DNA of 22,155 nt from a virus. The stretch spans positions 1-22,155 of IMG/VR virus record IMGVR_UViG_3300044712_000059; one strand, written 5' to 3'. Below, in pieces: positions 49 through 18,694 of the stretch; the stretch's first letter is position 1; each line of letters starts with the position of its first letter. Under the pieces are notes generated by a model that made no database searches, had not been told where the DNA came from, and saw nothing but the letters and a program-made list of their open reading frames with translations. Made by a program: the position numbers and the translations under genes.

Positions 49-231
49 TGAGTCTCATCCGAGGCTCCGCCCTTCCTTCCCTGCTAGCCTGCTTTTGTGT
101 TTGCAGACCCGCGATGCGCTGCTTAACCATCTTTACCCGATAGAATCCAGCACGAAACACAAGCGTATTCTAGTACCGCATTCACGGGATGACCTTTACG
201 TAAACGTCAACTTTCCTTACACGAAACTTAC

Positions 232-1674: not shown

Positions 1675-1689
1675 GTTCTTGGATGGGTA

Positions 1690-2198: not shown

Positions 2199-4345
2199 TG
2201 GCTAAAGACAGCGACATCCTTGCCGACGCCCTTGAGCAGTTTAAGATCTCCGAGGACGCTGAGGCGGACAACCGGGAAACAGCCCTAGAAGATATCCGCT
2301 TTGCCCGCATGGGCGAGCAATGGCCCGATGAAATTGCCGCAGAACGGTCCCGCGAGGGCCGTCCCATGCTCACGATCAACCGGATGCCGTCCTTCTGCCG
2401 TCAGGTGGTCAACGATGCTCGTCAAAACAAGCCAAGCATTACAACGCGCCCGGCAACCGGTGGAGCCAACGTCTACACCGCCAACCTGTTCGACGGACTC
2501 ATCCGGCAGATCCAGAACCAGTCCAGCGCCAGCATTGCCTACGATACAGGCATCGAATCCGCCGTCTATGGTGGTTTCGGGTACTGGCGTGTTGATGTGG
2601 ACTATGCCTACAACGACTCCTTCGACCTTGATATTGTCATCCTTCCGGTAGAAAACCCGTTCTGCGTCTACGGCGATCCCATTGCAGGCGGTGCCGATTC
2701 CCGCGACTGGAACTTCGGATTCATCGTCGATGACATCCCGAAACAGGAGTTCAAGCGCCGCTATCCGGGTGCCGACGAGGGTCAGTTCGATGCCGCCGAG
2801 CCGAATCAGGCGGAATGGGTCACGGAAGAAACCATCCGGGTCGCGGAGTGGTGGAACCGCACGATAACGAAGAAAAAGATCGTCAAGCTGTCCGATGGAC
2901 GCATCCTTGACGCCGAGAATTACCTCAGAGAGAAGGGGATCTTCGATGCAATGGGTCTACAGGTTACTGGCGAACGCGAAACTCCTACTCACGAAGTTAC
3001 GCACCGCGTTATCACGTCCTCCGAAGTCCTAGAGGAAACCAAATGGGCGGGTTGCTACGTCCCGCTCGTGCCGACCTATGGCGATGTGGTCAATATCGAG
3101 GGCGTGCGGTACTTCCGCAGCCTGATCCGCGATGCCCGCGATCCGCAAAAGATGTTCAACTTCTGGCGGACTGCTGCTACGGAACTGGTCGCTCTCGCCC
3201 CTCGCGTTCCGTACATCGGTGCCCGTGGGTCGTTCAATACGGATAGCGAGAAGTGGCAAACGGCTAACCGCAAGTCGCACGCCTATCTGGAATACGACCC
3301 GCAGCCGGGTATGCCGCCTCCACAGCGTCAGTCACTAGACGGTGGAATTGCTGCAGGAGCATTGCAGGAAGCCATGAATGCCTCTGACGACATGAAAGCC
3401 GTCATGGGGATCTTCGATGCGTCACTGGGAGCAAAATCCAATGAAACGTCAGGTCGAGCCATTATGGCTCGTCAGCGCGAGGGAGATACTTCAACATTTC
3501 ACTTCATCGACAACCGCGACCGCGCTATCGAACATACGGGCCGCATCCTCGTCGATCTCATCCCGAAGGTTTACACAGGCGATAGAGTCGTCACCATACT
3601 TTCCGAAGACCTTAAAGAGTCACAAGTCGCTCTTGGAAAGCCTGTCCAGATAGCCAACGGCGTCAGCCACATCTTCGATCTCACGGCAGGCAAATACTCG
3701 CTTGTGATGAAGAAGGGGCTGTCGTACACCTCCAAGCGCGAGGAATCGGCCACTCAGATGATCGAACTGGCAAAAGTCACCGGCACGGGTGGATTGTTTG
3801 CCGATGTCATCGCCAAGAACCTCGACTTCCCCGGTGCTGACATCATCGAACAGCGCATCCAGGCATCGCTGCCTCCGCATGTGACGGGCAAGGGTCCGTC
3901 GCCGCAGGAACAGCAGATGCAGCAGGTCATGCAGCAGATGCAACAGGCCCTCCAGCAGATGCAGCAGGAAATCCAGAAGAAGGACATGGAAATCCAGGCG
4001 CTCAAGACAGGAACGCAAGCCGATATGGCTAAAGCGCAGGTTGATCTCGAAAAGGTCGGCGTTGACAAGGAAAAGGTCGAAGTCGAGAAAGCCAGCCTTC
4101 AGATCGAAGCGCAGCGCGTGATGAACGAGGCTATGCAGCTACAGCAGCAGGCTGAACAGGCCAATATGGACACCCAAGGCTTGCAGGGTGCGATTCAAGC
4201 GATGCAGGAGCAGATGCAACAGATGGCGCAGATGCACCAGCAGATGATGCAGCCGAAGAAGAAACAGGGTCGTGCTGTCAAGCAGCAGGACGGAACCTGG
4301 ACACTGGAATCCGTAGAGGTTCCGACCACTCAACCACTACAGTAG
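2198..4345 (+). CDS. portal protein (P22-like)
   Basis: This 715-aa protein forms the dodecameric ring at the capsid vertex through which DNA enters and leaves. Its length is close to P22 portal (725 aa). The N-terminal part (residues ~1-80) contains the charged segment ending in GRPMLTINRMPSFCRQVVND, typical of P22-type portals. A wing/stem region follows, with the IESAVYGGFGYWRVDVDY segment. From about residue 568 to 688 the sequence is strongly Gln/Met-rich and helical (repeated QQMQQ units, then a KAQVDLEKVGVDKEKVEVEK coiled coil), matching the long C-terminal helical barrel of P22 portals. The ATG overlaps the stop of the preceding gene. The Q-rich coding DNA is internally repetitive. 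Confidence 0.9.
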   Translation: MAKDSDILADALEQFKISEDAEADNRETALEDIRFARMGEQWPDEIAAERSREGRPMLTINRMPSFCRQVVNDARQNKPSITTRPATGGANVYTANLFDGLIRQIQNQSSASIAYDTGIESAVYGGFGYWRVDVDYAYNDSFDLDIVILPVENPFCVYGDPIAGGADSRDWNFGFIVDDIPKQEFKRRYPGADEGQFDAAEPNQAEWVTEETIRVAEWWNRTITKKKIVKLSDGRILDAENYLREKGIFDAMGLQVTGERETPTHEVTHRVITSSEVLEETKWAGCYVPLVPTYGDVVNIEGVRYFRSLIRDARDPQKMFNFWRTAATELVALAPRVPYIGARGSFNTDSEKWQTANRKSHAYLEYDPQPGMPPPQRQSLDGGIAAGALQEAMNASDDMKAVMGIFDASLGAKSNETSGRAIMARQREGDTSTFHFIDNRDRAIEHTGRILVDLIPKVYTGDRVVTILSEDLKESQVALGKPVQIANGVSHIFDLTAGKYSLVMKKGLSYTSKREESATQMIELAKVTGTGGLFADVIAKNLDFPGADIIEQRIQASLPPHVTGKGPSPQEQQMQQVMQQMQQALQQMQQEIQKKDMEIQALKTGTQADMAKAQVDLEKVGVDKEKVEVEKASLQIEAQRVMNEAMQLQQQAEQANMDTQGLQGAIQAMQEQMQQMAQMHQQMMQPKKKQGRAVKQQDGTWTLESVEVPTTQPLQ

Positions 4346-4353
4346 GAAACGAA

Positions 4354-4566
4354 ATGTCAAACTCTGAAGTTCCTCTGGTCTACACATCCAAAGGGAATGT
4401 TCCTGAATCGACCCTGAAGTACCAGCATCAGTGGATCAAGAATGATGAGTTCATCCAGTTCCTGGAATACTGGACGGATGAAACGGGTGAAGTTGTGAAA
4501 AACAACGTTCATGTCTACGCGCTGAAGGGCGGTCCGTCCATCGGCGGTCAACAAGCACTAATGTAA
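4354..4566 (+). CDS. 70-aa hypothetical protein
   Basis: A 70-residue soluble protein (MSNSEVPLVYTSKGNVPES... ending GGQQALM). It starts 8 bases after the portal stop with an AGGAAA ribosome site just upstream (AGGAAACGAAATG) and is followed closely by the next gene with its own AAGGAG site. It is rich in polar and aromatic residues (WIKNDEFIQFLEYW) and has no signal or membrane segment. Small proteins at this place between portal and structural genes are common in this phage type, but I recognise no named family. Function unknown; a virion or assembly role is inferred only from position. Confidence 0.75.
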   Translation: MSNSEVPLVYTSKGNVPESTLKYQHQWIKNDEFIQFLEYWTDETGEVVKNNVHVYALKGGPSIGGQQALM

Positions 4567-4576
4567 GGAGATTCTG

Positions 4577-5032
4577 ATGGCGAACAGCCAAGCAATCTGC
4601 ACCAGCTTCAAGGTGGAACTGCTGAAAGGCATCCACGCTCTCGGCACCACGGTCACTCGCGGTGGCACGACAAAGGACACGATCAAGGCGGCGCTCTATC
4701 TGGCTTCGGCCAGCCGTGGCGCAGGCGATACGGTCTATAACTCGACCGGCGAAGTCAGCGGCACGAACTACGTTGCCGGTGGCGTCACCGTCACGAACGG
4801 AACCGAGCCGACCAATACCGGAACGACCGCTCACTGGACCCCAAGCGCCTCGATTGTCTACACGACAGTCACGCTCTCAACGGCGTTCGATGCTGTGCTG
4901 ATCTACAACAGCACGCAAGGCGACAAGGCGATTGCCGTCTATACCTTCGGTTCGCAGACCATCACCGCTGGCACGTTCACGCTGACGATGCCGACGAATG
5001 ACGGGACGACCGGCCTACTTCGACTGGCATAA
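4577..5032 (+). CDS. small phage structural-type protein (unknown role)
   Basis: A 151-aa protein with a strong ribosome site (AAGGAG) before ATG 4577. It resembles a recurring phage protein type of ~140-150 residues: an N-terminal MANSQAICTSFKVELLKGIH helix, then a DTIKAALYLASAS strand and a VSGTNYVAGGVTVT turn, followed by Thr/Ser/Gly-rich beta strands that end in FTLTMPTNDGTTGLLRLA. Proteins of this kind sit among head or tail structural genes, and I infer a virion component such as a neck, decoration or fibre-anchoring part. No catalytic motif is visible. Recognition is from pattern memory only and the exact role is not known to me. Confidence 0.65.
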   Translation: MANSQAICTSFKVELLKGIHALGTTVTRGGTTKDTIKAALYLASASRGAGDTVYNSTGEVSGTNYVAGGVTVTNGTEPTNTGTTAHWTPSASIVYTTVTLSTAFDAVLIYNSTQGDKAIAVYTFGSQTITAGTFTLTMPTNDGTTGLLRLA

Positions 5033-5035
5033 GAG

Positions 5036-7693
5036 ATGGCCGGTGGTCAACAGATCAACAGTGGTCAGGGCAACGTCGCCTATGACACAGGGACGGTCGA
5101 ACAGGCTGTAACTGGATCTGCTGCTACCGGCGCTCAAGGAAGTTCTGCAAGAAGCAGTTTCCACCCTCTGCGCTCCAAAAAGACAGGGGGTGGTGCTGCA
5201 TCGTTCTTGCTGTCCGGTAGTTTTACTACGGCAGCAACAGGAATCCCGGTCAAGCAGGTTGCTGCACTGGTATCAGGTAGCCCAACGACATTTGCTGCTG
5301 GTTCTGTTTCTCAAAGTTGCGCCAAAGCACTAACTGGTACACAAATCGCAGGAGCAACCGGCATTGCCGGTGGAGGCGTTCCAGCATGGTCTGTCGGCGC
5401 AATCACGCTGGTTGAAGGTCAGTCCGGACAGGCTTCTGGACAGTTCAACCTTGTGGCAACCGGACCGTCTGGATACGTTGCCGGTGGTTCATATGATGTT
5501 CTCAGTGGTTCCGCGCTTCCGTCAGGAGCAACGCTATCTGCTGCTGGATTGATTGATGTCGGAACGGCTGTTGATGCCAGTGATGCGACTGGAGTCGTAT
5601 TTGGCTACACAGAGCCGAATGCACTTCCGACATTGACGTTGCACAACGCAAGCGTGACTGGTGAATTGCCGTTCATGGCGACAGCGTATCCATCAGAGAG
5701 CGCCGTTCCTGCCGGATTCACGATTCGCAGTTCTACACACGCAAACCTGAGAAGTTCTGTATTGAGCACATGGCCTGACGGATCGGCTCAGGTCGTCGTG
5801 ATGGCTGGGACGCACACGTTTGCCACAACGAATACAACCGGCACCGTGTCTCTACAGGCAGGGCCACAGCAAGGCACTGCTCTTGGTGTTGCTGACATCG
5901 CAAGCAAGTTCACAACGGGTATCAGCGTGGATTTTGGTGGTGGCGTCGGAACGCTGACGGCAGCACAGATGCTGACCAATTATGACCGGATCTGGTGGCA
6001 GAACTCACAGGTAATCTGCGCTAGATACCGTCTTGCCATCCCAGGCAAGGGCGTCATGGAAGCGGTGATAGACATTCACTCCTTCGCTGGTAGCCGGGCG
6101 TTTGTAGAGGTTGTCATAGAGAACGGTGAAATCGACACTGCCGGGACATCAACACTCCCGGTCAGCCAGTCGTATACGGGCGCTACGGTAAGCGTCAATG
6201 GAGTGACCATTGCCACCGTCAACAGTTCGCGTCCTTGGCACGTTGGTCAGGGCACTCCGACAACTCAGACGACACATGAAGCGTTCAGGGCGTGGTATTG
6301 CTCTGGATGGGTGGGTAGTGATCCTGCGGTAACGGTAACGCATGACACTGCTTATTTGCAGGCTCACCCGTTATTTTTTGAGCCGACCGCAGCTTCGTCC
6401 TATGACTTCTCAACGTATGTACCGGCAGGTAGCAATTTCAAGTCTGGAACATCGCTAAGTGCTGTTCCACAGACATACGGCACCGATACTTATGGCCCGT
6501 GGGCTGCGGGCAGACACCGCTATAACGGGATGGGCGGTACGGGCGACAGCGTGACCATTGCCTATCTGCCGCAGTGGGAGTGTTCTTACATCCAGACTGG
6601 CAGCAAGTATGTAGCCAATGCTGTGATTCAGAGCGGCCTGGGCGTGCTGACGTTCCCGATCCAGTACCGGGATACGGGTGGTGCCGTCCCGACGATGACA
6701 CAGATGGGAACCAAGACTCTCAGCAACACGAGTGGCATCCCCTACATTGGATGGCCGTTCGCAAACTATGACTACTATATGTGGGACTACGCTCACTGTC
6801 CTGCTGTTGGACTGGTTGCGTTCCTGTGCAGGCCATCGCCATGCTTCATCGAACTTGCCCAAAAGGCGGCAATGTTCAACTCGGCAGCGTATTCAGATCG
6901 CTTATTCGGCTACTACTACAACACCCGTGGCAAGGCGTGGTGCTATCGCAACTTGGCGTTCTCGGTGTTCCTGACACCCGATGCGCACCCATGGAAAACG
7001 TCTGCCAAGACCACGCTAGCTGCGAACACCACATTCTTCCTTGGGTGGAAGCAGTCGGCAGCGAACAAGCTGGACATATTGTGGCAGTACGACTTGACCG
7101 ACTTCAGGGACGAGGGCGACAACCCCGGTTTCCAGGCGTCGATGTGGCAGCATAACTTCGTTGCTGTTGTAACTCACAAAGCCGCATCAGCAAAATTGTT
7201 GACAGGAACAGACCAGACAAACATGGTTGAACTGGCTGACTGGGCTTGCGGTCAGGCGATTCGCTTTGTCACTGAGTCAACTGGCACTGAGTGGCGCTAT
7301 GCAGGCACTTACCACGGCAACATCGGAACTCAGGGCTATACGTCAGGCGATCTTGCTCCAACAATGTCTCAGTTCAATACGTGGGGCCAAGCGAGGGCGT
7401 GGAACAAGTCTGAGGCTGCTCCGACTGGTGCTGGAACGTGGAAAGTCTACTTTGGTGAAGAACCCAATGTGTACTCGTCACTCTGGACGGACGTTACCGG
7501 GAACAACGAGACTGGCGCAGAAATCAACTATACGTCGATTTTCTGGTCTGCTTTTGTGGCTGGAGTTGAGCGTGGCCTAACCAATTCTGATGCGGCATGG
7601 ACGACGGTCAATGCCAATGTGACGAACATGTCCACGTTCCTTGGCAATGGCTCCAAGGATTGCCGGTTCTCGCATTACCCGAGGAACAAGTAA
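5036..7693 (+). CDS. large tail fibre/spike-like structural protein
   Basis: An 885-aa protein starting 3 bases after the previous stop. Residues ~1-115 hold several short Gly/Ala/Thr/Gln repeats (for example LTGTQIAGATGIAGG), related in style to the repeat protein at 11036-12622. Residues ~115-195 look like an Ig/cadherin-type domain (ITLVEGQSGQASG... SGSALPSGATLSAAGLIDVG). The long remainder is rich in W, Y, G, T and S, with aromatic-rich segments such as DYYMWDYAHCPAVG and TEWRYAGTYHGNIG. That composition suits a carbohydrate-binding or depolymerising beta structure, though no catalytic residues can be named. There is no signal peptide. It is the first gene of a beta-rich cassette between portal and scaffold. 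The receptor-binding role is inferred, not shown. Confidence 0.7.
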   Translation: MAGGQQINSGQGNVAYDTGTVEQAVTGSAATGAQGSSARSSFHPLRSKKTGGGAASFLLSGSFTTAATGIPVKQVAALVSGSPTTFAAGSVSQSCAKALTGTQIAGATGIAGGGVPAWSVGAITLVEGQSGQASGQFNLVATGPSGYVAGGSYDVLSGSALPSGATLSAAGLIDVGTAVDASDATGVVFGYTEPNALPTLTLHNASVTGELPFMATAYPSESAVPAGFTIRSSTHANLRSSVLSTWPDGSAQVVVMAGTHTFATTNTTGTVSLQAGPQQGTALGVADIASKFTTGISVDFGGGVGTLTAAQMLTNYDRIWWQNSQVICARYRLAIPGKGVMEAVIDIHSFAGSRAFVEVVIENGEIDTAGTSTLPVSQSYTGATVSVNGVTIATVNSSRPWHVGQGTPTTQTTHEAFRAWYCSGWVGSDPAVTVTHDTAYLQAHPLFFEPTAASSYDFSTYVPAGSNFKSGTSLSAVPQTYGTDTYGPWAAGRHRYNGMGGTGDSVTIAYLPQWECSYIQTGSKYVANAVIQSGLGVLTFPIQYRDTGGAVPTMTQMGTKTLSNTSGIPYIGWPFANYDYYMWDYAHCPAVGLVAFLCRPSPCFIELAQKAAMFNSAAYSDRLFGYYYNTRGKAWCYRNLAFSVFLTPDAHPWKTSAKTTLAANTTFFLGWKQSAANKLDILWQYDLTDFRDEGDNPGFQASMWQHNFVAVVTHKAASAKLLTGTDQTNMVELADWACGQAIRFVTESTGTEWRYAGTYHGNIGTQGYTSGDLAPTMSQFNTWGQARAWNKSEAAPTGAGTWKVYFGEEPNVYSSLWTDVTGNNETGAEINYTSIFWSAFVAGVERGLTNSDAAWTTVNANVTNMSTFLGNGSKDCRFSHYPRNK

Positions 7694-9132
7694 TGGCGGC
7701 TCTTGTTTATCCTCGTCGAACCACAAGTACGGCAACGACGATTACGGTCAGCGGTGGCATTACATGGCCGCAGTCGGTCGCCGTTAGTTCATACGCCAGC
7801 GTCCCGCTTGTCAGCACTATTGCGAGCGTGTCTCCATCGCTGTCGTTTGTTGCTGATGGATACATAGGTGCTTCGTATAGCCAAAACATTGTCTGGAACG
7901 AAGACTATGGAGCCGGCGGTGGTGGTCTTTTCACTGGTGGTGGTCACGTAACAAGCGACTACCCATTTGCTTGGGTGTTTGATGGATCGATTCCTGGATG
8001 GGTCGCTCTTGACACTTCAGGACCGACAAACGCACTTGCTACAAACACGACATATGCCACCGGAGCGGAAGCTAGCTTAACGCCTGCAAACATTCCTGGC
8101 GGAACGCTGATTGCCGATGGCTACTACTGCCGCCCGCAGGCAGCAGATCCTGCTTATCCGACTCCATATGGCTATCCAGCGTTTGACTACATGGAGTTTG
8201 GCGAGTGGTCTACTGGAAAGCCATTCGGATTCCACACATGGAATAGCCTTTTCCCGATTCCTCCTGGCGTTGCTGGCATGGGCTCCAAGGGAGGATGGGG
8301 AAGTATTTGCCACCACTCGATGACGCGCATGAGCGGTCGAGGCGTAGCGTGGGGCCACAAGATTGATGCGGCGACTGGCGTTTGGTCCCGTTGGCCGCAT
8401 AGGTTGCCTGCTTTGACGGGCATCAATGATATGGGCGCGTGCATGCGTTCCTGTTCAGACGGGACGTATGCCTATACGCAGTGGAACTATCCGACAAGTA
8501 ACGCTAGAAACCTTGTCAGGACAACGCTAGCGACTGGTGTCCACGTTTCGCTCCCGCACGCGAACCAAGCGTGGGCGACGAATAACATCGTCATCATCCC
8601 AGGCACGACCATTGTCGTGTCGTTGTATGGCGCAGGAAGCGGTCTACAGGGTTCAGGGTCGCAACAGGCAACGATCCTTGCGACGGATGTCGGGTCAGCC
8701 GGGACAAATCAAGTTGAAGTAACGATGGGCAGTAACACAATGCCTTCCGGCGTTTATTGGGACTCTGCGTATCAGAATACTGCCGGTGGATTCGGACAGG
8801 CAGGTCTTGCGTGGGTTCCCGAGGTAGGCAAGCTTGCTGCGTTCCACCAAGCTCCTGCGGGCAGCACAAATGGCACGTGGCCGATGAAGCTTTACTGGAT
8901 AACACCACCGGCAAACGTACAAAGCACGTGGGCGTCAGGAACGTGGACGGTATCAGAGGAGGCTCTGACCATTCCTGGTGGCGATACGAAAGCCAACAAC
9001 GCAACAAACAGAGGGACGTATGGCAATCAATACACCTCGTTTGCATGGTCAAGCAAGTTGCGTTGCTTCCTACATTTTCCTCGCCCAGGTACTGGAATGT
9101 GCTTCTTTATCCGCACGAGTCTGGTCCCATGA
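7693..9132 (+). CDS. beta-propeller-like tail/fibre-associated protein (hypothetical)
   Basis: A 479-aa protein. I place the start at ATG 7693, which overlaps the upstream TAA (TAATG), and reject the ATG at 7597 because its first 32 codons lie inside the upstream gene in another frame and have odd composition. The N-terminus is Thr/Ser/Val-rich (ITVSGGITWPQSVAVSSYAS). The rest contains repeated blade-like segments with Trp and Gly: VWSRWPHRLPALTG, GLAWVPEVGKLAAFHQAPAG and a C-terminal YTSFAWSSKLRCFLHFPRPG, suggestive of a beta-propeller or Kelch-like fold. No active site is recognised. Its last codons overlap the start of the cupin gene. A receptor-binding or virion-surface role is inferred from context. 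Confidence 0.65.
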   Translation: MAALVYPRRTTSTATTITVSGGITWPQSVAVSSYASVPLVSTIASVSPSLSFVADGYIGASYSQNIVWNEDYGAGGGGLFTGGGHVTSDYPFAWVFDGSIPGWVALDTSGPTNALATNTTYATGAEASLTPANIPGGTLIADGYYCRPQAADPAYPTPYGYPAFDYMEFGEWSTGKPFGFHTWNSLFPIPPGVAGMGSKGGWGSICHHSMTRMSGRGVAWGHKIDAATGVWSRWPHRLPALTGINDMGACMRSCSDGTYAYTQWNYPTSNARNLVRTTLATGVHVSLPHANQAWATNNIVIIPGTTIVVSLYGAGSGLQGSGSQQATILATDVGSAGTNQVEVTMGSNTMPSGVYWDSAYQNTAGGFGQAGLAWVPEVGKLAAFHQAPAGSTNGTWPMKLYWITPPANVQSTWASGTWTVSEEALTIPGGDTKANNATNRGTYGNQYTSFAWSSKLRCFLHFPRPGTGMCFFIRTSLVP

Positions 9133-9440
9133 ACAAGTCTCATAGCTGGACTACATATGACTGGTCGGCGCGTCTTATGCAGGCCGACTACGGTGCGCCG
9201 CATGAGGGCCACGAGCACTGGACCGATCATGTCACGGTCATTGTGCGTGGTCCGGTTCGCATTGAGATGGACGTAGAGGCTATCGAGGCAGACCGTGGCG
9301 ACGCTATCGTTATTAAGGCTGGCGTTCGTCATCGCTTTGTACCACTGCACGCACGAGGCGCTGCTTGGCGTTGTTTATTTAGTTATGCTCACGCGATGAC
9401 TGATGGTGTAGCGCACGATAATTTCGACAAGGACAAGTAA
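9129..9440 (+). CDS. small cupin-domain protein
   Basis: A 103-aa protein starting at ATG 9129 inside the ATGA overlap with the preceding gene. It has the outline of a single-domain cupin: GAPHEGHEHWTDHVTVIVRG at residues 22-41 supplies several histidines in the place of cupin motif 1. A beta stretch (VRIEMDV) follows, then GDAIVIKAGVRHRFVPL at 57-73 in the place of motif 2, with H68 as the expected metal-ligand position. There is no signal peptide. Cupins bind metals and act as isomerases, dioxygenases or sugar-binding modules; the substrate here cannot be told. Its position inside a fibre-gene cassette suggests a sugar-related or virion role, which is inference. An upstream extension of this frame to 8757 is rejected because it overlaps the previous gene. 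Confidence 0.75.
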   Translation: MNKSHSWTTYDWSARLMQADYGAPHEGHEHWTDHVTVIVRGPVRIEMDVEAIEADRGDAIVIKAGVRHRFVPLHARGAAWRCLFSYAHAMTDGVAHDNFDKDK

Positions 9441-10178
9441 ATGGCAGCCAGCATCGTTCAGCAGAAGTTCGACGTATCGCAGGGCGGAACGTCGCAGGCG
9501 ACCATCAGCATCACGCCAAACAGTTCCATCACAGTTGGAAACTACCTGTGGGTCGTTTGCTGGGGCAATGCCACGATGGCAACGGCCAGCATTTCCGATG
9601 GAAGTAACACATATACTGCCCGCACCGATACTGGATATAGCTCCGCATGGGTGCGTGCGTGGACTACACCGATCACTACTGGTGGAACACCAACAATAAC
9701 AGTGACTCCAGCAGCAAATCGCAATATGTCGATAATGCTGGTCGAGGTTTCTGGAGTTAATAGCGGAACACCTGTCGAATTAAATGGTTCTGTATGGCAG
9801 TTGTGGGATAACAGTTCATTTCCTGCATCGCCTTTGAACTTTGGGGCGACCACCAATGCCGACCAACTGATTCTGGCAGCGGCAGGAACTGGTCCGAGTA
9901 TCGGTAGTTCACGAGACTATGGCGCAAACACCGGCTGGACGCAGGTTGCGGAAGCAACGACCGGTCCGACAATCTGCCTGATAAGCAAGAGCGTCACGAG
10001 TACCGGAACGTATGATCCGGACTTCACGATGGCGGCTGCTGGCTCTACTCAGGTTGTGTTTGTTGGTATCAGTTTTGTCAGTGGTGCTGGTAGTCCAGAT
10101 GTAACCGTTGCGGCGAGCGGTTCAGCATCAACTACTGGTCGTGGAACTCCGGTTCCTGACTTTCAGATTCCTCTTTAG
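9441..10178 (+). CDS. beta-rich tail/fibre-like protein (hypothetical)
   Basis: A 245-aa protein whose ATG directly follows the upstream TAA. It is dominated by Thr, Ser, Gly, Ala and Val in alternating patterns expected of a beta sandwich (SQATISITPNSSITVGNYLWVVCWGN, TPTITVTPAANRNMSIMLVEVSGV). In the central part, LNFGATTNADQLILAAAGT resembles the repeat cores of phage adhesins and lectin-like domains. The C-terminus trails into a low-complexity linker (VTVAASGSASTTGRGTPVPDF). There is no catalytic motif, signal peptide or coiled coil. I infer a minor virion or fibre component from composition and neighbours only. Confidence 0.65.
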   Translation: MAASIVQQKFDVSQGGTSQATISITPNSSITVGNYLWVVCWGNATMATASISDGSNTYTARTDTGYSSAWVRAWTTPITTGGTPTITVTPAANRNMSIMLVEVSGVNSGTPVELNGSVWQLWDNSSFPASPLNFGATTNADQLILAAAGTGPSIGSSRDYGANTGWTQVAEATTGPTICLISKSVTSTGTYDPDFTMAAAGSTQVVFVGISFVSGAGSPDVTVAASGSASTTGRGTPVPDFQIPL

Positions 10179-10186
10179 GAGTTGCC

Positions 10187-11035
10187 ATGCTTGACGTAGG
10201 AATCAGGGAAAGTACAGCGACTACTGGAACAGGTTCTCTGACGCTTGTTGAAGAAGCGGGATTCGTCAGGATTTCAGAAGCGTTTACGGCTGGAGATCTT
10301 GTCAGTTATCTCATTACCAGTGGAAATGACCGTGAATGGGGCATTGGAACGCTTGAGGGTGGCGGGACGTTCGCCAGAACGTTCGTCAGCGCTAGTCTGG
10401 TCAGTGGAACGTTCTCCCGTGCCAACACGCCGATCACGTTGGCTGGAACCAGTTACATCGTCTGCACGGCGCATCCAGGTGGAATGTATGGTGGAATAAG
10501 TGGATTCATTTCACATGGGTTGACTGCAAGGTATGTTCCTCATGCTGTTAATGGTACTGCACTAACTACGCTTGGAATGACAGCTAATCGTGGTTACTTC
10601 ATGCCATTTATTCCGGTGCACTGTCCAAAAGAATTTGGAAGTCTTGGAATTGAAGTAACAACGTTGACGGCTGGAACAGCCTATGTGGCATTGTTTGAGA
10701 CTTCCATTGCAAGTGGAAACTACAGGCCGGGTCGTCGCTTATACCAGACTGGTGCTTTAGATACTGGAACGACAGGCGAAAAACTGACTGGAAGCCTTGC
10801 AATCAGGTTGCGTCCCGGAACGCTTTACTGGATTGCCGTAACGGCATCTTCAACTTGCACGATGCGTGCTGTAGGTGTTGGTGGTATCAATGCGTTGCTT
10901 GGATTCAGTAACGCAACGACCACAAGTCGTTCGCATATCTACGCTACGCAATCTGGAGCATTTGGAACTGATGCTTCAGGGTTGACGTACACCATTGCAA
11001 CAGGCAACGCTCCCGCACCGCTTCTAGCACCGTAA
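10187..11035 (+). CDS. tail fibre/adhesin-like protein with phage N-terminal attachment-type domain
   Basis: A 282-aa protein with a good ribosome site (AGGAG, 7 bases before ATG 10187). The N-terminal ~95 residues follow a pattern I know from many phage tail and baseplate proteins: TATTGTGSLTLVEEAG, then FTAGDLVSYLITSGNDREWGIG, then GTFARTFVSASLVSGT. That module usually precedes a variable adhesin. The remainder is a beta-rich domain (RGYFMPFIPVHCPKEFGSLGI, RLRPGTLYWIAVTASSTCTM) resembling the jelly-roll heads of fibre tips. No enzyme motif is visible. The next gene begins immediately after its stop. A receptor-binding or accessory fibre role is inferred. Confidence 0.7.
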   Translation: MLDVGIRESTATTGTGSLTLVEEAGFVRISEAFTAGDLVSYLITSGNDREWGIGTLEGGGTFARTFVSASLVSGTFSRANTPITLAGTSYIVCTAHPGGMYGGISGFISHGLTARYVPHAVNGTALTTLGMTANRGYFMPFIPVHCPKEFGSLGIEVTTLTAGTAYVALFETSIASGNYRPGRRLYQTGALDTGTTGEKLTGSLAIRLRPGTLYWIAVTASSTCTMRAVGVGGINALLGFSNATTTSRSHIYATQSGAFGTDASGLTYTIATGNAPAPLLAP

Positions 11036-12622
11036 ATGTTTGAAAACAACCCATTCGGAATAGAGCCGTTTGGTACTAACGGCGAAGGACCGCATGAGTT
11101 GGTCGGGCAGTCTATTGCTGTCCAGCAAGGTAATGTCGAAGCAATACTGAACAAGACTGCTGACTTAACAGGTCAGTCAAGTACGGTTCAGCAAGGCATT
11201 CTACGAACGTTTGGTCAGCAGATATCTGCTGCTGCCGGAACTGTCACTCCGGTAATAACGAATGGCATCACGCTAATTGGCTCTGCTATTACGGTTGAGC
11301 AGGGTATTACTTCGGTCGCTGGTGGTGCTCGTGGTCAGGCAATTACTTTATTCCAAGGCACCATTGTCGCGTCTGTTGGTTCTGGAGAAACTCTGACTGG
11401 TAGTGCAAGCACAACAGTTTCTGGAATATTGCTCCCAGTAAATAATCCAACGACATCGGCTGGTCAAGTTATTTCTGGGGCTTCCGGTAACGTTGTTGTT
11501 GGAGGTAATCCGGTCACTGTCAATATCAGTGGCGTAGAAGCTGACTTTTTCATCGGTAGCCTGATTGCAGGAACGCAGTTTGTAACTGGTCAGGTATCGA
11601 CGACTGCTGCCGGAACATTGACTTATGTTCTGACGCTTCCAGTTGTCGGCATTGGCGCGTCTTTGGCCCAAGGAAACATTGCTGCCTCGCAGGAAGCAGA
11701 AGACACCTACATTGCGTCCTTGTACGGCATCCAGATCGCCAATATCGACGTTGAGTTGGTAGGTTCCGATGTCCTGATGGATACGGAACAGGGCAATGTC
11801 GGCACATCGGGAGATGACTTCAAGGCGCTGACTGGAAGCGCAACGGTATCGGCTGCTGGAACGTTGATTGCTGTACCTCAATTGTCGATCACGGGGCAGG
11901 AAATCAGCGATCAGCAGGGCGTGTTCGGTGCTCCTGGATTTGCAAGTCTGACTGGTGCTGAAAGTGCAGTTGTTGCGGGCAATGTGTTCCTGACTAATGA
12001 CCGGACATTCCCGATCACCGGGCAAAAAATGGTCATCAGTGACGGCAATGCCGTTACTAGCTACTTGGCTTTTGCGATTGGTCAGGTGCTGAATGTATCG
12101 CAGGAAGGCATTGGACCGAGAATAGTGAATCTGTTTGGCGAGCAGATTCTGAGCAGGCAGGGTGTCGTAATGCCGCCTGCCGTGACAGAGGCTCTTGTTT
12201 CTACTGGCGGGTTCTATCGTAGGAACAGGACACAGCGTGTTCCACTGTATGCGCGTATGCCTACGGACGAGGAAGTACTAGCAGAGCGCGAGGCTCTTGG
12301 AATCCTGCCCAAGAAGACTCAGAAGTTGATTGTCAATGAAGTCAAGAAGATTGCGAACGTGGATACCCGGTCAGAGGCGGCGCTGTTGGCGAATGCTTAT
12401 CTGCAAGATGGTCCGCAGCGCAATCTGATGGATCGTCTGCGCAATACCGCAGAAGATCAAAACGTAAGGTGGCGCGATGAGATGTTTACGATCACTCATG
12501 CGCTGATCCTTGATTCGTTGCGACGCAAAGCCGACCGCGAACTGCTTGAAAAACTAGTCGCGGAGGAAGAAGCAGAAACTGCCGAAGTCAACGAAATCCT
12601 TGAACTCTGGATGGAACTCTAG
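11036..12622 (+). CDS. repeat-rich structural protein with helical C-terminus
   Basis: A 528-aa protein whose ATG directly follows the preceding TAA. From about residue 20 to 384 it is built of roughly 15 degenerate units of 18-28 residues with the consensus LTGQxxxVxQGxVxxx; examples are LVGQSIAVQQGNV, LTGQSSTVQQGIL, ITGQEISDQQGVF and LFGEQILSRQGVV. This suggests a beta-solenoid or linear array of short beta arches. From about residue 390 the composition changes to charged, helical sequence (MPTDEEVLAEREALGILPKK, then LEKLVAEEEAETAEVNEILE), which could be an oligomerisation or attachment domain. The same style of repeat occurs at the N-terminus of the 885-aa protein at 5036. Virion role inferred; no named family recognised. 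Confidence 0.7.
   Translation: MFENNPFGIEPFGTNGEGPHELVGQSIAVQQGNVEAILNKTADLTGQSSTVQQGILRTFGQQISAAAGTVTPVITNGITLIGSAITVEQGITSVAGGARGQAITLFQGTIVASVGSGETLTGSASTTVSGILLPVNNPTTSAGQVISGASGNVVVGGNPVTVNISGVEADFFIGSLIAGTQFVTGQVSTTAAGTLTYVLTLPVVGIGASLAQGNIAASQEAEDTYIASLYGIQIANIDVELVGSDVLMDTEQGNVGTSGDDFKALTGSATVSAAGTLIAVPQLSITGQEISDQQGVFGAPGFASLTGAESAVVAGNVFLTNDRTFPITGQKMVISDGNAVTSYLAFAIGQVLNVSQEGIGPRIVNLFGEQILSRQGVVMPPAVTEALVSTGGFYRRNRTQRVPLYARMPTDEEVLAEREALGILPKKTQKLIVNEVKKIANVDTRSEAALLANAYLQDGPQRNLMDRLRNTAEDQNVRWRDEMFTITHALILDSLRRKADRELLEKLVAEEEAETAEVNEILELWMEL
11093..12187 (+). repeat. tandem degenerate coding repeats (GQ...QG units)
   Basis: About 15 tandem units in the repeat-rich protein share G-Q at the start and Q-G or A-G about eight residues later. 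The units are diverged at the DNA level, with varying spacing and codon choice. This points to old protein repeats rather than a recent expansion. Confidence 0.65.
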
Positions 12623-12630
12623 GAGAAAAA

Positions 12631-13578
12631 ATGTACCCGCAAGACGCAGGCACCCCGGAAACTCCCGAAGCACCGGAAGCCGCACCCGTTGATAACAGCC
12701 CGGATGTCGAATCCGCACCGCAGCTAGATGGAGAGCAGTCTGACCTGACGCAGGATGCTCCCCAACTGTCTGACGAAGACTATCAGTTGAATTTTCTTGG
12801 TACCAGCAAGTTTGAAATTCCTAGAGGTACACAAGAGGAAGTTCGTGCTGCACTGAAGAATCTTGAGAAGTCGCTGAACAAAGGGTGGACCGAGAAAAAC
12901 ATGCGTTTGTCGGAAAAGATACGCATGGCTGATGCACAGCAGCAAGAAATTGCTCAGACGGCGGAAATCCAGAAAGCGACTATCAAAGAGCTTGCAAAAC
13001 TGGAGTACTTGCAAGATCAACTGAATCAGTATGATAATGTTGACTGGCAGCAGTGGGCGACAACTGATCCTGAAGCCGCGAACCGCGCCTTCATGGCCTA
13101 TCAGGGACTCCAGAGGCAACATGCCAAACTGGATTCCGAGGTCAAAACGAAGCAGGATCAGGAACGCCAAAGCCAGCAGCAGCGTGCGCAGCAATGGTTG
13201 GCGCATGCAGAGGCAAAGTTGCAGGAGAACATTAAGGATTGGACTCCCGATAAAGGGAGAACCATCCAAAAGTTCATCTCTGAAACCTACCTCAACACCA
13301 ATACCCCAATGGATCAGGGCGCACTCCAGGCAGTGTCCTGGCACCCCGGCCTAGTCCAGATGGCCCATGAGGCAATGCTTTACAGGGAATCCCTGAAGCG
13401 AGCCTCCGCTAAAGAGCAACCTGTCCCGGCTGTTCCTGTCTCCAAGGTCAAGGGTACCGCACCAGCTGGCGCGAAAGACCCTTCCAAGATGACTGACGAA
13501 GAATGGCTGGCGTGGCGCAATCAGGATCTTGCGAACAAACGTAGGGCTGCTCCGATGAACACGATTCGTAGACGCTGA
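12631..13578 (+). CDS. scaffolding protein
   Basis: A 315-aa protein, close in length to P22 scaffold (303 aa), directly upstream of the coat gene as in P22. It has an AGGAG ribosome site 6 bases before ATG 12631. The first ~55 residues are Pro/Glu/Asp-rich and disordered. Residues ~75-200 are helical and coiled-coil rich (ALKNLEKSLNKGWTEKNMRL, then QERQSQQQRAQQWLAHAEAK). The last ~30 residues are basic and end in PMNTIRRR, the kind of positively charged C-terminal helix that binds coat subunits in P22. It would nucleate procapsid assembly and leave before or during packaging. No protease or catalytic motif is seen. Confidence 0.85.
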   Translation: MYPQDAGTPETPEAPEAAPVDNSPDVESAPQLDGEQSDLTQDAPQLSDEDYQLNFLGTSKFEIPRGTQEEVRAALKNLEKSLNKGWTEKNMRLSEKIRMADAQQQEIAQTAEIQKATIKELAKLEYLQDQLNQYDNVDWQQWATTDPEAANRAFMAYQGLQRQHAKLDSEVKTKQDQERQSQQQRAQQWLAHAEAKLQENIKDWTPDKGRTIQKFISETYLNTNTPMDQGALQAVSWHPGLVQMAHEAMLYRESLKRASAKEQPVPAVPVSKVKGTAPAGAKDPSKMTDEEWLAWRNQDLANKRRAAPMNTIRRR

Positions 13579-13582
13579 TTCC

Positions 13583-13623
13583 GGCTCCCGTCTTGGGGGT
13601 CGGGCAACCCCAAGATAGGAGCC
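13583..13623 (+). promoter_or_regulatory. RNA hairpin that encloses the capsid Shine-Dalgarno
   Basis: GGCTCC (13583-13588) pairs with GGAGCC (13618-13623), and TCTTGGGG (13591-13598) pairs with CCCCAAGA (13608-13615). One C-A mismatch and one G-U pair lie between, giving a stem of about 15 pairs with a 9-base loop. The capsid ribosome site AGGAG (13617-13621), 6 bases before ATG 13628, lies in the 3' arm. No T-run follows, so it is not a standard intrinsic terminator. It could limit capsid translation, be opened by ribosomes finishing the scaffold gene, or be an RNase cleavage site. Confidence 0.75.
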
Positions 13624-13627
13624 TTGA

Positions 13628-13708
13628 ATGGCGAATACCGTCCTCACCCCGACGATCATTACGCGCGAAGCCCTGCGCGTCTTGCATCAGAAACTGACGT
13701 TTCTCGGT
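13628..13708 (+). CDS. major capsid protein, exon 1 (codons 1-27)
   Basis: ATG 13628 opens a frame encoding MANTVLTPTIITREALRVLH, then QKLTFLG, followed at once by an in-frame TAA at 13709-13711. Continuing at 14524 gives N-V-N-T-Q-Y-D, and the joined product matches the paralogous segment in the protein at 1863-2198 (LHQKLSFVNSVNTRYD) with no gap. The ribosome site AGGAG lies 6 bases upstream inside a hairpin. The exon ends in GGT, providing the U that conventionally precedes a group I 5' splice site. Unspliced mRNA would give only a 27-residue peptide. The exact junction could shift by one base only if the frame were lost, so 13708/14524 is strongly constrained. Confidence 0.88.
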
Positions 13709-13750
13709 TAACAGTCAGCCGCCTTGTACTGTAAAGTACACTGAAAAACG

Positions 13751-13779
13751 TTGTGAAATCGGTGAAAATCTTGTATACT
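13751..13779 (+). promoter_or_regulatory. sigma70-like promoter for the intron endonuclease
   Basis: TTGTGA (13751-13756), a 17-base spacer and TATACT (13774-13779) form a good sigma70-type promoter. The -10 box ends 6 bases before ATG 13786, so transcription would begin at or next to the start codon and give a leaderless mRNA. The -35 box overlaps the P3 strand of the intron. No Shine-Dalgarno is present before the ATG. Confidence 0.5.
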
Positions 13780-13785
13780 TTCAGT

Positions 13786-14439
13786 ATGAACAAGACGATA
13801 CCGAGCCAAGCCTTGAGACGGGAACGCCTGTTGGCTGACCCGACTTGCAGCAGGTGTGGCGAGCGAAAGACCGTGGAAGACTTCCCTGCAAAGGGTGTTG
13901 ATTACTGGTGTACCGCTTGCCGCAATTCGTACTCGTTGAATCTGTATCACGAGCGTCGTGCAAAGTTGAGCGCAGAGGAACTGCAAAAACTTCGTGATGA
14001 TGTGAATAGACAGCAAAAGCTTCGCAGGGCTGAAAGGCTCGCCAAAATGGACGCCGAGAAATTGGCTGCGTTCAAAGCGAAAGCGAATGCTCAAAACATC
14101 GAAAGACGGAATGCTGTCCGAGATGTTGTCTACCGTGCATATGGCGGATACAAGTGCGCCTGCTGTGGAGAAACTGAGAAGTTGTTTCTGAGTATCGACC
14201 ACGTTAACAATGATGGCGCTGAACACAAGCGTTCGATGAAGTTGAACACTGGCGAACAGTTGCATCGGTGGTTAATCAGAAACAACTTTCCTGAGGGTTT
14301 TCAGGTTCTCTGCATGAACTGCAATTGGGGGAAGCATCGGAATAACGGTGTCTGCCCCCATCAAGGAAGGTGTAACGACTATCCCGAAAGGGAGTACAGC
14401 CAAGTGGCTGGAAGCGCAACGCCCCTCTATCGAGGGTGA
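13786..14439 (+). CDS. intron-encoded HNH homing endonuclease
   Basis: A 217-aa protein encoded within the capsid-gene intron. Residues 21-45 hold a zinc-binding CxxC...CxxC module (CSRCG, then WCTAC). A basic helical linker follows (~55-110), then an HNH nuclease domain: CACC at 124-127, SIDHVNNDG at 136-144 with the catalytic D-H pair at 138-139, and LCMNCNWGKH at 175-184 with the second zinc pair C176/C179, N180 and H184. Such enzymes cut intronless alleles near the insertion site and drive intron homing. I choose ATG 13786 over the in-frame GTG 13753 because the GTG lies in the P3/-35 region and the ATG sits right after a promoter-like -10. The last ~20 codons overlap the intron's P7, P3 and P8 strands, so this part of the gene is constrained at both RNA and protein level. 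Confidence 0.88.
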   Translation: MNKTIPSQALRRERLLADPTCSRCGERKTVEDFPAKGVDYWCTACRNSYSLNLYHERRAKLSAEELQKLRDDVNRQQKLRRAERLAKMDAEKLAAFKAKANAQNIERRNAVRDVVYRAYGGYKCACCGETEKLFLSIDHVNNDGAEHKRSMKLNTGEQLHRWLIRNNFPEGFQVLCMNCNWGKHRNNGVCPHQGRCNDYPEREYSQVAGSATPLYRG

Positions 14440-14523
14440 TGAGATAGTCTGCTCTGCATGGCGACATGCAGCGGGTCGAAGTCAGGCCGGGAGTGGAACT
14501 AACGAGCCACTCTGAACACAAGG

Positions 14524-15729
14524 AACGTCAACACCCAGTACGACTCCCGTTTCTCCGATTCGGGCGGCAAGATCGGCAATACGCTGAATGTGCGTATGCC
14601 GTCGAAGTACACGACTTCCAAGTCGGCTATCACCAACCTCCAGTCGAACGCTTCGGCTTCGTATCAGGACTCGGTGGAGCGCAGCACGCCAATCGTTATT
14701 GCGTCGCAATACCACGTTGATGTGTCGTTCACCAACGCCGAACTGTCGCTCGGTATCGACGACTTCAGCCAGCGCATCATCAACCCGGCGATTTCGCAAC
14801 TGGCCGCGTCGATGGAAGCCGATGCCGCGATTCAAGCCTACAAGCTGGTCGCCAACTACGCGGGTGACTACTCGGGCGCGATGACCTACAAGTCGTTCCA
14901 GCAGAACGGTCAGAAGATCACGGAAAACCTTGGTCCCCTGCCGAATCGCACCGCCATCCTGAACCCGCAATCGACGGTGGAATTTGCCGATGCGACCAAG
15001 GGTCTGTTCCAGGACAGCAACGAGATCCAGAAGCACTATCGTGAGGGTCGCATGGGCCGCACGGGTGGATTCGATGTCTACGAATCGACCCTGATCCCGG
15101 CGCATACGGTCGGCTCGATGGCCGGTTCGTGCGTGACCACGGGCGCTGCCAACGCGACGACCACGACCGCGACGACCTGGGTTTCGCAGACGGACGTTTC
15201 GGTGACGGGTGCCACGGCGACGACCACCTTCAAGGCGGGCGACATCGTGACCTTCGGTACGCTGGCTGACGGGTTCGTGGACTGCCATCCGGAGTCGAAA
15301 GCCTCCTATGGCCGTCTGAAGACCTTTGTCGTGCAGGCTGACCTGACGATGACCACGGCGACCAGCACCTACACGGTGACGGTCAAACCGGGCATCATGG
15401 TCGGTTCGGGCAATGCCTACCAGAACGCCATTATGACGGGTGCGGATACGTCCGGCCTGACGGTGACGAACTGGGCGGCGGCGTCGAGCACGGTCGGTCA
15501 GTCGCTGTTCATGCACGAGGATGCCTTCACGTTCGTGACGGCGGATCTGGAGGATGTGTCGAAGTACGGTTCGTGGGGCGCTCGCGCCGTCATGGATGGG
15601 ATCTCGATGCGGGTTGGCCGTCAGTGGGACATCACCAATGACCGCTTCCCGTGCCGGATCGACGTTCTGTGGGGCTTTGCGGGTCTGTACCCGGAACTCG
15701 CTTCCCGCCACATCCATAAGGTCGTGTAA
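14524..15729 (+). CDS. major capsid protein, exon 2 (P22 coat-like; codons 28-428)
   Basis: The frame resumes at AAC 14524 and runs to TAA 15727-15729. Joined with 13628-13708 it encodes 428 aa, next to 430 aa for P22 coat (gp5). Family features are a conserved shell region (FTNAELSLGIDDFSQRIINP, residues ~95-115), then AAISQL-type helices and a NPQSTVEFADATKG segment. An inserted beta domain of about 100 residues (~226-326: FKAGDIVTFG, FVVQADLTMTTATSTYTV, VKPGIMVGSGNAYQNAI) matches the P22 telokin-like I-domain position. The C-terminus is DRFPCRIDVLWGFAGLYPELA. A start at ATG 14590 would be the naive call, but it drops 49 conserved N-terminal residues. Codon use is strongly biased to C/G third positions, as expected for the most abundant virion protein. 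A terminator follows. Confidence 0.92.
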   Translation, partial: NVNTQYDSRFSDSGGKIGNTLNVRMPSKYTTSKSAITNLQSNASASYQDSVERSTPIVIASQYHVDVSFTNAELSLGIDDFSQRIINPAISQLAASMEADAAIQAYKLVANYAGDYSGAMTYKSFQQNGQKITENLGPLPNRTAILNPQSTVEFADATKGLFQDSNEIQKHYREGRMGRTGGFDVYESTLIPAHTVGSMAGSCVTTGAANATTTTATTWVSQTDVSVTGATATTTFKAGDIVTFGTLADGFVDCHPESKASYGRLKTFVVQADLTMTTATSTYTVTVKPGIMVGSGNAYQNAIMTGADTSGLTVTNWAAASSTVGQSLFMHEDAFTFVTADLEDVSKYGSWGARAVMDGISMRVGRQWDITNDRFPCRIDVLWGFAGLYPELASRHIHKVV

Positions 15730-16673: not shown

Positions 16674-16834
16674 AAACCCTGTTTTACGTTGACCTGAAAG
16701 TTGACGCAGATCAAGCATCAAAAGATGCAGGGATTGACCTGCTCAAAAGCAATGGGTGCACCAAGTTCGTCGAAAGTCAGGAAATAGACAGCGACGGCAG
16801 AACAGTGATTCGTATCAGCGGAGGAACAGAATGA
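16670..16834 (+). CDS. 54-aa hypothetical protein
   Basis: ATG 16670 overlaps the preceding TGA (ATGA) and has GGAGG 4 bases upstream of it. It encodes 54 residues beginning MKTLFYVDLKVDAD and ending VIRISGGTE. Its stop overlaps the start of the methyltransferase (ATGA at 16831-16834). The small acidic alpha/beta-looking protein has one Cys and no signal or membrane segment. A longer frame extending upstream from here lies inside the glycosyltransferase gene and is not used. No family recognised. Because it lies between modifying enzymes it could be an accessory protein or a substrate, but nothing in it resembles a known peptide precursor. Confidence 0.65.
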   Translation: MKTLFYVDLKVDADQASKDAGIDLLKSNGCTKFVESQEIDSDGRTVIRISGGTE

Positions 16835-17376
16835 AGCGCGAACTGCTCATGGGTTGCGGTAACTCAAGAGAGAAGCAGGTAAAGTGGACTGGAAGCGATG
16901 GACCGTTTGAAAACGTCACAACTCTTGACATAGATCAAAGTTGCAATCCAGACGTCGTATGGGACTTGAACAATCTCCCGTACCCCTACGAGGACGACTC
17001 GTTTGACGAAATCCACGCCTACGAGTGCTTGGAGCACACCGGCAAGCAGGGCGACTGGAAGTTCTTTTTCGAGCAGTTTGCCGAGATCCACCGCATCCTG
17101 AAACCGGGTGGCGTGCTGGTGGCGACCGTCCCGATGTGGGATTCCCCGTGGGCATGGGGTGATCCGGGCCATACGAGGGTCATCACCCGTGGAAGCCTGT
17201 TGTTCCTTGACCAGCATCAATACATGCAGGTCGGGACGACTTCCCCCATGACCGACTACCGCCCCTGGTACAAGGCTGACTTTGAAACGATGAACGTCAT
17301 GGAGTCGGAGCACCGCTTCGGGTTCATCCTGAAAGCCATCAAGGGCGATGTCCGCAAGAGTCCCGTTGAAGGATGA
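16831..17376 (+). CDS. SAM-dependent methyltransferase (class I)
   Basis: A 181-aa protein starting at ATG 16831, which overlaps the upstream stop and follows a GAGGAA ribosome site. It has a compact Methyltransf_11-type layout: MGCGNS (7-12) as the glycine-rich SAM motif I, TLDID (31-35) with the acidic ribose-binding residue, and DLNNLPYPYEDDSFDEIHAYECLEH (45-69), the usual motif II/III stretch. EIHRILKPGGVLVATVPMW (85-103) is the motif IV-V signature. The shorter length suggests that only the catalytic domain is present. The acceptor is unknown. The 5' third is less GC-rich than the rest, a possible sign of mosaic origin. An upstream start at 16756 is rejected because it lies within the 54-aa gene. 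Confidence 0.85.
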   Translation: MKRELLMGCGNSREKQVKWTGSDGPFENVTTLDIDQSCNPDVVWDLNNLPYPYEDDSFDEIHAYECLEHTGKQGDWKFFFEQFAEIHRILKPGGVLVATVPMWDSPWAWGDPGHTRVITRGSLLFLDQHQYMQVGTTSPMTDYRPWYKADFETMNVMESEHRFGFILKAIKGDVRKSPVEG

Positions 17377-18230
17377 TCGATTACGCCCCCTACCTTGAGC
17401 GTTGGCATAGCCAGCCTAAGGAAGTCAGCCTAGAAACTCTGGCGCGGTGTAACGCCGCCTGCACCTTCTGTCCCTATCCCACGCTGGAGCGGATAGGGAC
17501 GAAGATGCCGGACCAGTTGATCCAGAAGTTGCTCAACGAAATGGCGACTTGGGAGGTCGAGTTTGACTTTGCCCCCTTCAAACTAAGCGAACCTCTGCTG
17601 GACGTTCGCCTTCAATCCATCTGTGAGACATTTTCTACCGATGTCCCTAAAGGGACGCTTCGGCTGTTCACAAATGGTTCTCCGATGACCAAAAAGCATC
17701 TGGAGTGGATTGCCGCATTGCCGAGGCTTCATCACCTTTGGATCAGCCTGAACGACCATAGGGCTGACGAATATCAAAAGTTGATGCGGATTCCGTTCGA
17801 CAGGACTGCCAAAAACCTAGACCTTCTGCATGAGATGGTGGTCAAGGGCGAGTTCAAGCATCCTGTTGTGATTTCTCGGGTTGGGCAGGATTTTGACTTC
17901 CAACGTTATTGCCACATCCGTTGGCCCGAGTTCCAGAGAAGCATCATCAAGAAGGATGGCTGGCTAGGCTATGTCGATCCAGATGATCCGACGATCCCTG
18001 ATACGCCCTGCATCCGATGGTTTGAGCTTTCTATCATGGCCGATGGGCTAACGAGTCATTGCTGCATGCACTCTGGAGAACCCGCCAAATACAACATCGG
18101 GGACGTAAACAAGCAGACGATGCTCGAAATCTACAATTCGCCGTTTTGGGCAGAAAGACGCTACAAGCTTCTTAGCCGAAAAGCATTGGATGATCGCTCA
18201 CCGTGCAACCAATGTAGCTACGGCTACTGA
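17373..18230 (+). CDS. radical SAM protein with SPASM-like C-terminus
   Basis: A 285-aa protein starting at ATG 17373, overlapping the methyltransferase stop. The signature CxxxCxxC motif that binds the 4Fe-4S cluster and SAM is C26-N-A-A-C30-T-F-C33. A barrel-like core follows, with KLSEPLLDVRL (a GGEP-like position) and LRLFTNGSPMT. The C-terminal part has further cysteines in a SPASM/Twitch-like arrangement: C213 (TPCIRW), C230 and C231 (HCCMHSGE), C278 and C281 (CNQC). SPASM enzymes generally modify peptides or sugars, and some act on other small molecules. With a glycosyltransferase and methyltransferase alongside, it may take part in sugar or protein modification. Its stop overlaps the end of the convergent HNH gene. 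Confidence 0.88.
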   Translation: MIDYAPYLERWHSQPKEVSLETLARCNAACTFCPYPTLERIGTKMPDQLIQKLLNEMATWEVEFDFAPFKLSEPLLDVRLQSICETFSTDVPKGTLRLFTNGSPMTKKHLEWIAALPRLHHLWISLNDHRADEYQKLMRIPFDRTAKNLDLLHEMVVKGEFKHPVVISRVGQDFDFQRYCHIRWPEFQRSIIKKDGWLGYVDPDDPTIPDTPCIRWFELSIMADGLTSHCCMHSGEPAKYNIGDVNKQTMLEIYNSPFWAERRYKLLSRKALDDRSPCNQCSYGY

Positions 18231-18694
18231 GTTCTTTTCCGGTAAGGACGACGGTTTTTTAGCTGGGTAGAGATATCTGCCCAGCGACAATTCTCAGGTT
18301 CGTAGTTGCCGGAATTGTTTATACGATCAAGGGTCATGCCTTCTGGGCGTTCTCCCATATCCAGAAGGAAGTTCTCAAAAGACTTCCATCTGTCGCAGAC
18401 CGTAACTCCTCCATACGAGTATGGATTGCCTTTTTTGATTCTTGTGAACATGGCTGACCAGGAGTTATAGGTCTTTGTATGTCGGTAGTTCGCAGAATGT
18501 CCGTGCGTTAGCGCCCTAATTTTGTTGGCGCACGGGAGGCAACTTGACTGCCCTTTTTTAGTTAGCCTATATCCATTTGCCAATACGGCATTGCCGCATT
18601 TGCATAGGCAGTTCCAGTTGTAGTTTCGCTTTTTAACGCCCGCAAAAGAAACAACCGTCAGGTTTCCAAAGGTAAGGCCAGTTAAGTCACGCAT
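18224..18694 (-). CDS. free-standing HNH endonuclease (homing-type)
   Basis: A 156-aa protein, the only real gene on the minus strand. It belongs to a familiar phage type: N-terminal RDLTGLTFGNLTVVSFAG (2-19), a zinc-like CLCKCGN...SCLPC module (C29, C31, C33, C52, C55), then THGHSANYRHTKTYNSWSAM. YSYGGVTVCDRWKSFENFLLDMG precedes the nuclease core TLDRINNSGNYEPENCRWAD (121-140). These are mobile, self-spreading genes that cut related phage DNA near their insertion point. It is inserted antisense between the radical SAM gene, whose last codons it overlaps, and the adaptor gene. Base composition looks more AT-rich than the flanks, consistent with transfer. It has its own promoter and no Shine-Dalgarno. 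Confidence 0.88.
   Translation of the reverse strand: MRDLTGLTFGNLTVVSFAGVKKRNYNWNCLCKCGNAVLANGYRLTKKGQSSCLPCANKIRALTHGHSANYRHTKTYNSWSAMFTRIKKGNPYSYGGVTVCDRWKSFENFLLDMGERPEGMTLDRINNSGNYEPENCRWADISTQLKNRRPYRKRTQ

Follow-up and report, generated by a model that had tools for sequence, protein, structure and literature searches.

In the window, that is the 22,155-nucleotide stretch of the IMG/VR virus record IMGVR_UViG_3300044712_000059 analysed here, the gene for a P22-like coat protein is split by an 815-bp insert. Comparative analysis confirmed this insert (13709-14523) as a group I intron that shows features of subgroup IA and carries an ORF for an HNH endonuclease. With a probability of about 93%, we regard it as a mobile HNH-encoding intron that is predicted to be spliced out, giving the mRNA for a 428-aa coat, and to home into intronless coat genes; splicing, cleavage and advantage are here deduced from sequence. 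Introns in capsid genes are already known, and the interest of this one lies in a capsid-focused family with clustered insertion points.

The split coat gene and its empty counterparts

The genes and gene parts concerned are the following.

1884-2198, plus strand: truncated coat paralogue with a TAT-like start and about the first 61 coat residues, without an intron (from the sequence)
12631-13578, plus strand: head scaffolding protein gene, upstream of the coat gene (phrog_3927, E 8e-12)
13628-13708, plus strand: coat gene exon 1, MANTVLTPTIITREALRVLHQKLTFLG, 27 codons, aligned to the contiguous N-termini of the intact coats L002-L009
13709-14523, plus strand: group I intron of 815 bp, showing subgroup IA features (empty-site comparison, 3' core identity, covariation and an RF00028 score of 26.4 bits)
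13786-14439, plus strand: HNH endonuclease ORF P0003, 217 aa (phrog_2255, E 8e-14; invariant CxxC, DH and CxNC residues in 32-34 relatives)
14524-15729, plus strand: coat gene exon 2, P22-like coat, 401 aa (PF11651, E 5.6e-26; phrog_283, E 2.9e-48)

The frame of exon 1 runs into the stop codon TAA at 13709, directly after coat codon 27. Exon 2 scores 91.7 bits with the PF11651 profile (cut-off 24), which identifies it as a P22-like coat, and the same contig contains P22-like portal, terminase and scaffold genes. In the IMG/VR relatives L002-L007, whose coats are 55-71% identical, the coat is uninterrupted across the junction, and the same holds for the more distant L008-L009 (32% identical); the junction of L005 reads QKLTFLG/NVNKQYD. 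The predicted joined coat has 428 aa, with TFLGNVNTQYDSR as the peptide across the exon junction, and joining the flanks restores an open coat frame in the window as well as in 20 related P22-type loci.

The earlier note had proposed a capsid gene split by a group I intron, and this is borne out by the empty sites, the covarying fold and the IA-type P7.1/P7.2. Its boundaries (exon 1 to 13708, exon 2 from 14524) and the insert size of 815 bases were exact. It had based the junction on the intronless paralogue, which agrees, although the intact coats L002-L009 are the better evidence. This truncated copy is located between the terminase and portal genes, and the search of 8 related records for a separate full counterpart of it gave partial matches only, mostly to coat genes.

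Ribozyme fold and the ORF in its core

All ribozyme parts named in the earlier note, from P1 with its U.G pair through the P2 GUAA loop, the 7-bp P3, P7, P7.1, P7.2, P8 and the P9 GCGA loop to the terminal G, were found at the places given there, whereas the HNH ORF had been overlooked. The helices are listed with the share of standard pairs among the related introns.

13705-13721, plus strand: P1, exon CGGU (13705-13708) with the internal guide GCCG (13718-13721); the guide tracks the exon
13725-13740, plus strand: P2 hairpin with GUAA loop; 92 of 101 cells paired, double changes at 6 of 6 bp
13749-13755, plus strand: 5' strand of P3, pairing with 14415-14421; 126 of 126 cells paired, double changes at 5 of 7 bp
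13759-13804, plus strand: P4 (13759-13763/13800-13804) around P5 (13770-13774/13790-13794); P4 paired in 90 of 90 cells
13805-14371, plus strand: P6 (13805-13807/14369-14371), site of the ORF insertion; 53 of 53 cells paired, with a C-G to G-C change
14377-14449, plus strand: P7 (14377-14382/14444-14449), holding P7.1, P7.2, the 3' strand of P3 and P8; P7 paired in 106 of 108 cells, with double changes
14454-14471, plus strand: P9 hairpin with GCGA loop; 118 of 126 cells paired

The helix count was made on 18 related introns, aligned after removal of the ORF, and covered P1-P4, P6, P7, P7.1, P7.2, P8 and P9; P5, counted apart, pairs in 54 of 78 cells. Standard pairs made up 852 of the 903 pair cells (94%), compared to 31-42% if one strand was slid, and double changes were seen in 150 cells, while 500 shuffles never gave more than 57. 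All 51 core pairs drawn are kept in the window. Because the window served as the template for the structure, the paired fraction is biased in its favour; the double changes are no consequence of that choice. Both P7.2 (90 of 90 cells paired, double changes at 4 of 5 bp) and P7.1 (51 of 54) are present between P7 and P3, the arrangement by which subgroup IA is recognised.

The wobble pair at the splice site is U13708.G13718, and the terminal base of the intron is G14523. At every insertion point in the family the guide matches its exon (CGGU/GCCG, GGGU/GCCC, GGAU/GUCC, AGAU/GUCU and others, 10 distinct combinations), a perfect score that is partly by construction because the guide was taken to be the first G with three complementary bases after it, with an estimated chance of such a guide of about 0.13 per locus. 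Matches to the 3' core (14364-14523) were obtained in 252 phage records, including introns in DNA polymerase and primase-helicase genes; the core is 73-89% identical to phage introns and the whole-core matches end at the intron end. Thus folded after transcription, the intron RNA would pair the exon end ...CGGU with the guide GCCG in P1, a guanosine would attack after U13708, and the exons would be joined after G14523 to yield the mRNA for the 428-aa coat, while unspliced mRNA would give 27 residues only.

The gene could also be read without splicing, as a coat gene split by insertion of a free HNH gene, with the coat made from the GTG at 14590. The ORF starting there is open (379 aa), and free-standing HNH genes of a related clade adjoin intact coats. 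We consider this highly unlikely, since the exons are restored exactly at many loci, the guides match the exons, the catalytic core covaries, and the truncated product would be without 49 residues conserved in relatives. An ORF caller would yield precisely this truncated coat of 379 of the 428 residues, as had been foreseen, and intron-split coat genes thus get mis-annotated as N-terminally truncated.

The ORF overlaps the ribozyme core at both ends, with the first codons read from P5, P4 and P6 and the final ones from the stretch between P6 and P8. An N-terminal [IT]PSQ recurs among HNH relatives with the same layout because there the ribozyme core is read in frame. Residues C124, C127, D138, H139, C176, N178 and C179 of P0003 are the invariant ones. 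Pfam gave no HNH match for P0003. The predicted model has a pLDDT of 88 and is confident except for the C-terminal tail; a Foldseek search of it against the PDB found no significant match, the best ones being HNH enzymes at E 0.2-0.7, and phmmer against the PDB sequences found no match.

This layout also affects detection. At the gathering score (50 bits), RF00028 has no match in the window, and a permissive Infernal search with the same model gave 26.4 bits (E 2e-4). Relatives of the same ribozyme that have no ORF reach 60-85 bits, above the gathering score, and relatives with an ORF in P6 fail as the window does. The window thus falls below the Rfam threshold because the ORF inserted in the core hides the intron from the model. 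The covariance search proposed in the earlier note is therefore ambiguous on its own, negative at the gathering score and positive at the permissive one, and the idea that a missing covariance-model hit would speak against the intron is misleading at the Rfam default threshold, given the ORF in the core. We rejected the absent gathering-score match as a refutation, since the ORF-less relatives pass. Routine Rfam scans miss such introns when the ORF sits in the core. In three relatives (L061, L071, L078), most of the HNH ORF precedes P3 instead of being placed in P6; L071 and L078 are above the Rfam threshold.

Insertion points, mobility and free-standing sisters

The family was sampled as the best 80 HNH relatives in viral contigs. 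Split capsid genes contain 52 of these 80, namely 39 in introns of P22-like coats, many of them near copies, and 13 in split PF13252-type capsids. Another 11 are free-standing just upstream of an intact P22-like coat, a layout read directly for 9 of the 11, and 17 are elsewhere or unassigned. Four insertion points are used in P22-like coats. In the numbering of the window, two of them directly follow codon 15 and codon 27, the latter being the window's own, and two fall inside codons 18 and 33; at each of the four, joining the flanks gives back the coat. The points were set from curated exon ends, with L023 having no clean placement. Members of this intron family have entered one short stretch of capsid genes time and again, in many uncultured phages. 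In those of the P22-like kind, mobile introns have thus targeted the coat gene, which is expressed late and highly, more than once.

The point after codon 27 is also occupied by the same intron type in L010, L011, L012 and L013, which come from several datasets. As the contig is a metagenomic fragment, an intron of another genome might have been joined into the coat gene during assembly; the occurrence in these four other contigs and the match of the guide to the local exon make such an artefact extremely improbable. A further 80 coats fetched by similarity contained no intron, and the intron therefore seems uncommon, although loci fetched before were seemingly not returned, so that this is not a clean prevalence.

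In the GenBank record MW202512.1 (1049-1681) a capsid gene is apparently split by a related intron, the ends of which are approximate; the annotation there gives an 'icea protein' and a major capsid protein that is truncated. Two bacterial MAG contigs (L101, L102) contain the same kind of HNH and an intron core beside PF13252-type capsid genes; prophages or binned phages therefore carry them too.

In the HNH tree, the endonucleases at the window's insertion point (window, L010, L011, L012) form one clade (100/99) and those at the codon-33 point another (98/94). The coats are arranged differently: the window coat lies within a clade of intronless coats (100/98), L010 groups with coats carrying the codon-18 intron (100/100), and L011 and L012 are placed elsewhere, so that coats with this insertion point are found in three places. 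HNHs cluster by insertion point and coats do not, which indicates that the introns spread horizontally. The coats of L010 and L046 are 91% identical, with introns at different points and HNHs of 39% identity.

A more direct comparison is offered by L014, which is occupied (L015 is a second contig identical to it), and L155, which is empty. Both are identical over 1.6 kb upstream, to about 90 bases from the intron. Of the last 70 bases before the intron, 21 are different; the alignment there has no gaps, and in the coding part most of the changes are silent. Downstream 9 of 614 bases differ (about 98.5% identical). Co-conversion during homing leaves such a flanking tract (PMC3984707), and the divergent patch of about 90 bp is the trace expected from it, at the codon-18 sister point and not at that of the window. 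Both the conflict between HNH and coat trees and the L014/L155 tract at the sister point indicate site-specific spread into intronless alleles.

For the window, homing would begin with a cut or nick made by the HNH near codon 27 in the intronless coat gene of a co-infecting phage; in the repair, templated by the copy that has the intron, the intron would be inserted and exon DNA next to it co-converted. Alternatively, the ribozyme might still splice with the HNH dead or unexpressed, the intron now being fixed and vertically inherited in this phage. The start codon lies within P5 with no clear ribosome-binding site before it, and the last residues overlap the core and have low model confidence; against this, the HNH is full-length with all invariant residues, the C-terminus varies freely among relatives, and spread within the clade of this insertion point is evident from the tree conflict. 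We thus hold the loss of HNH function to be unlikely and favour an intron that is still mobile.

Cutting a rival's coat gene may in addition be of advantage to the host phage, the family being concentrated at capsid genes. More speculatively, the HNH lineage, whether intron-borne or free-standing, could have become a specialist for the capsid genes of tailed phages, using its four points between codons 15 and 33 of P22-like coats, and could persist because co-infecting rivals lose their coat genes to it; this is possible, but we consider it rather doubtful.

The free-standing members directly seen belong to the codon-18 clade and are located alone between scaffold and intact coat gene (L025, L026, L031, L034, L037, L052, L055, L064, L067). 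Free-standing endonucleases that share a target with introns are a proposed route to mobile introns (reviewed in PMC3984707), and in collaborative homing such enzymes cleave the sites at which introns insert (Bonocora and Shub 2009, Zeng et al. 2009, reviewed in PMC3984707). A pair of this kind consists of a free-standing endonuclease and an intron devoid of an ORF that have one target site in common; of the two, the endonuclease is the partner seen in these relatives. With sister HNHs free beside intact coats and relatives intron-borne in nearly the same gene, the layout resembles collaborative homing, a likeness suggested here by gene arrangement. Because occupied and empty alleles exist together with free-standing sisters, one short target would allow direct tests of homing, of how such introns form and of competition between phages.

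Comparison with known systems and neighbouring genes

The earlier note had called introns in capsid genes rare. They are indeed known in few phage capsid genes, but they have been documented in LittleE and Tuc2009 (PMC3706429) and in crAss-like MCPs (PMC7886860), which makes the present case less novel than the earlier note suggests. In the open-access literature we found no paper on introns in P22-like coats (subscription papers were outside the search).

The intron of the mycobacteriophage LittleE is the closest in layout: it has 819 bp compared to 815 bp, contains an HNH gene, interrupts the major capsid gene and has relatives with an empty allele. Its splicing was shown by RT-PCR and N-terminal sequencing (PMC3706429), whereas that of the window intron is predicted from the sequence. 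LittleE is moreover a siphovirus, its HNH gene has the opposite orientation, and its intron is located much later in the gene, at nucleotide 496 (PMC11855218). The crAss-like MCP introns (PMC7886860) likewise concern capsid genes of uncultured phages and endonuclease domains; those genomes, however, have many introns, and the likeness is drawn from their published description.

The 3' core is shared at 73-87% DNA identity, with the same fold, by introns in DNA polymerase and primase-helicase genes of T7-like, N4-like and T4-like phages (KF192075, MZ997840, MK327933, PQ657801), but there a replicative gene is interrupted and the HNH is of another type or absent. An effect on rivals is known for the intron-borne HNH of PhiPA3, gp210, which blocks assembly of the competitor PhiKZ (PMC11620839). 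The structural consequence observed there is proposed here, and the PhiPA3 target is gp178, not a coat gene.

Two further observations concern the region downstream of the coat gene in this podovirus-like contig. A methyltransferase and a radical SAM/SPASM protein are encoded within the structural gene block (16828-18230, plus strand), and a second, free-standing HNH gene of another family (phrog_374) is located at 18224-18694 on the minus strand.
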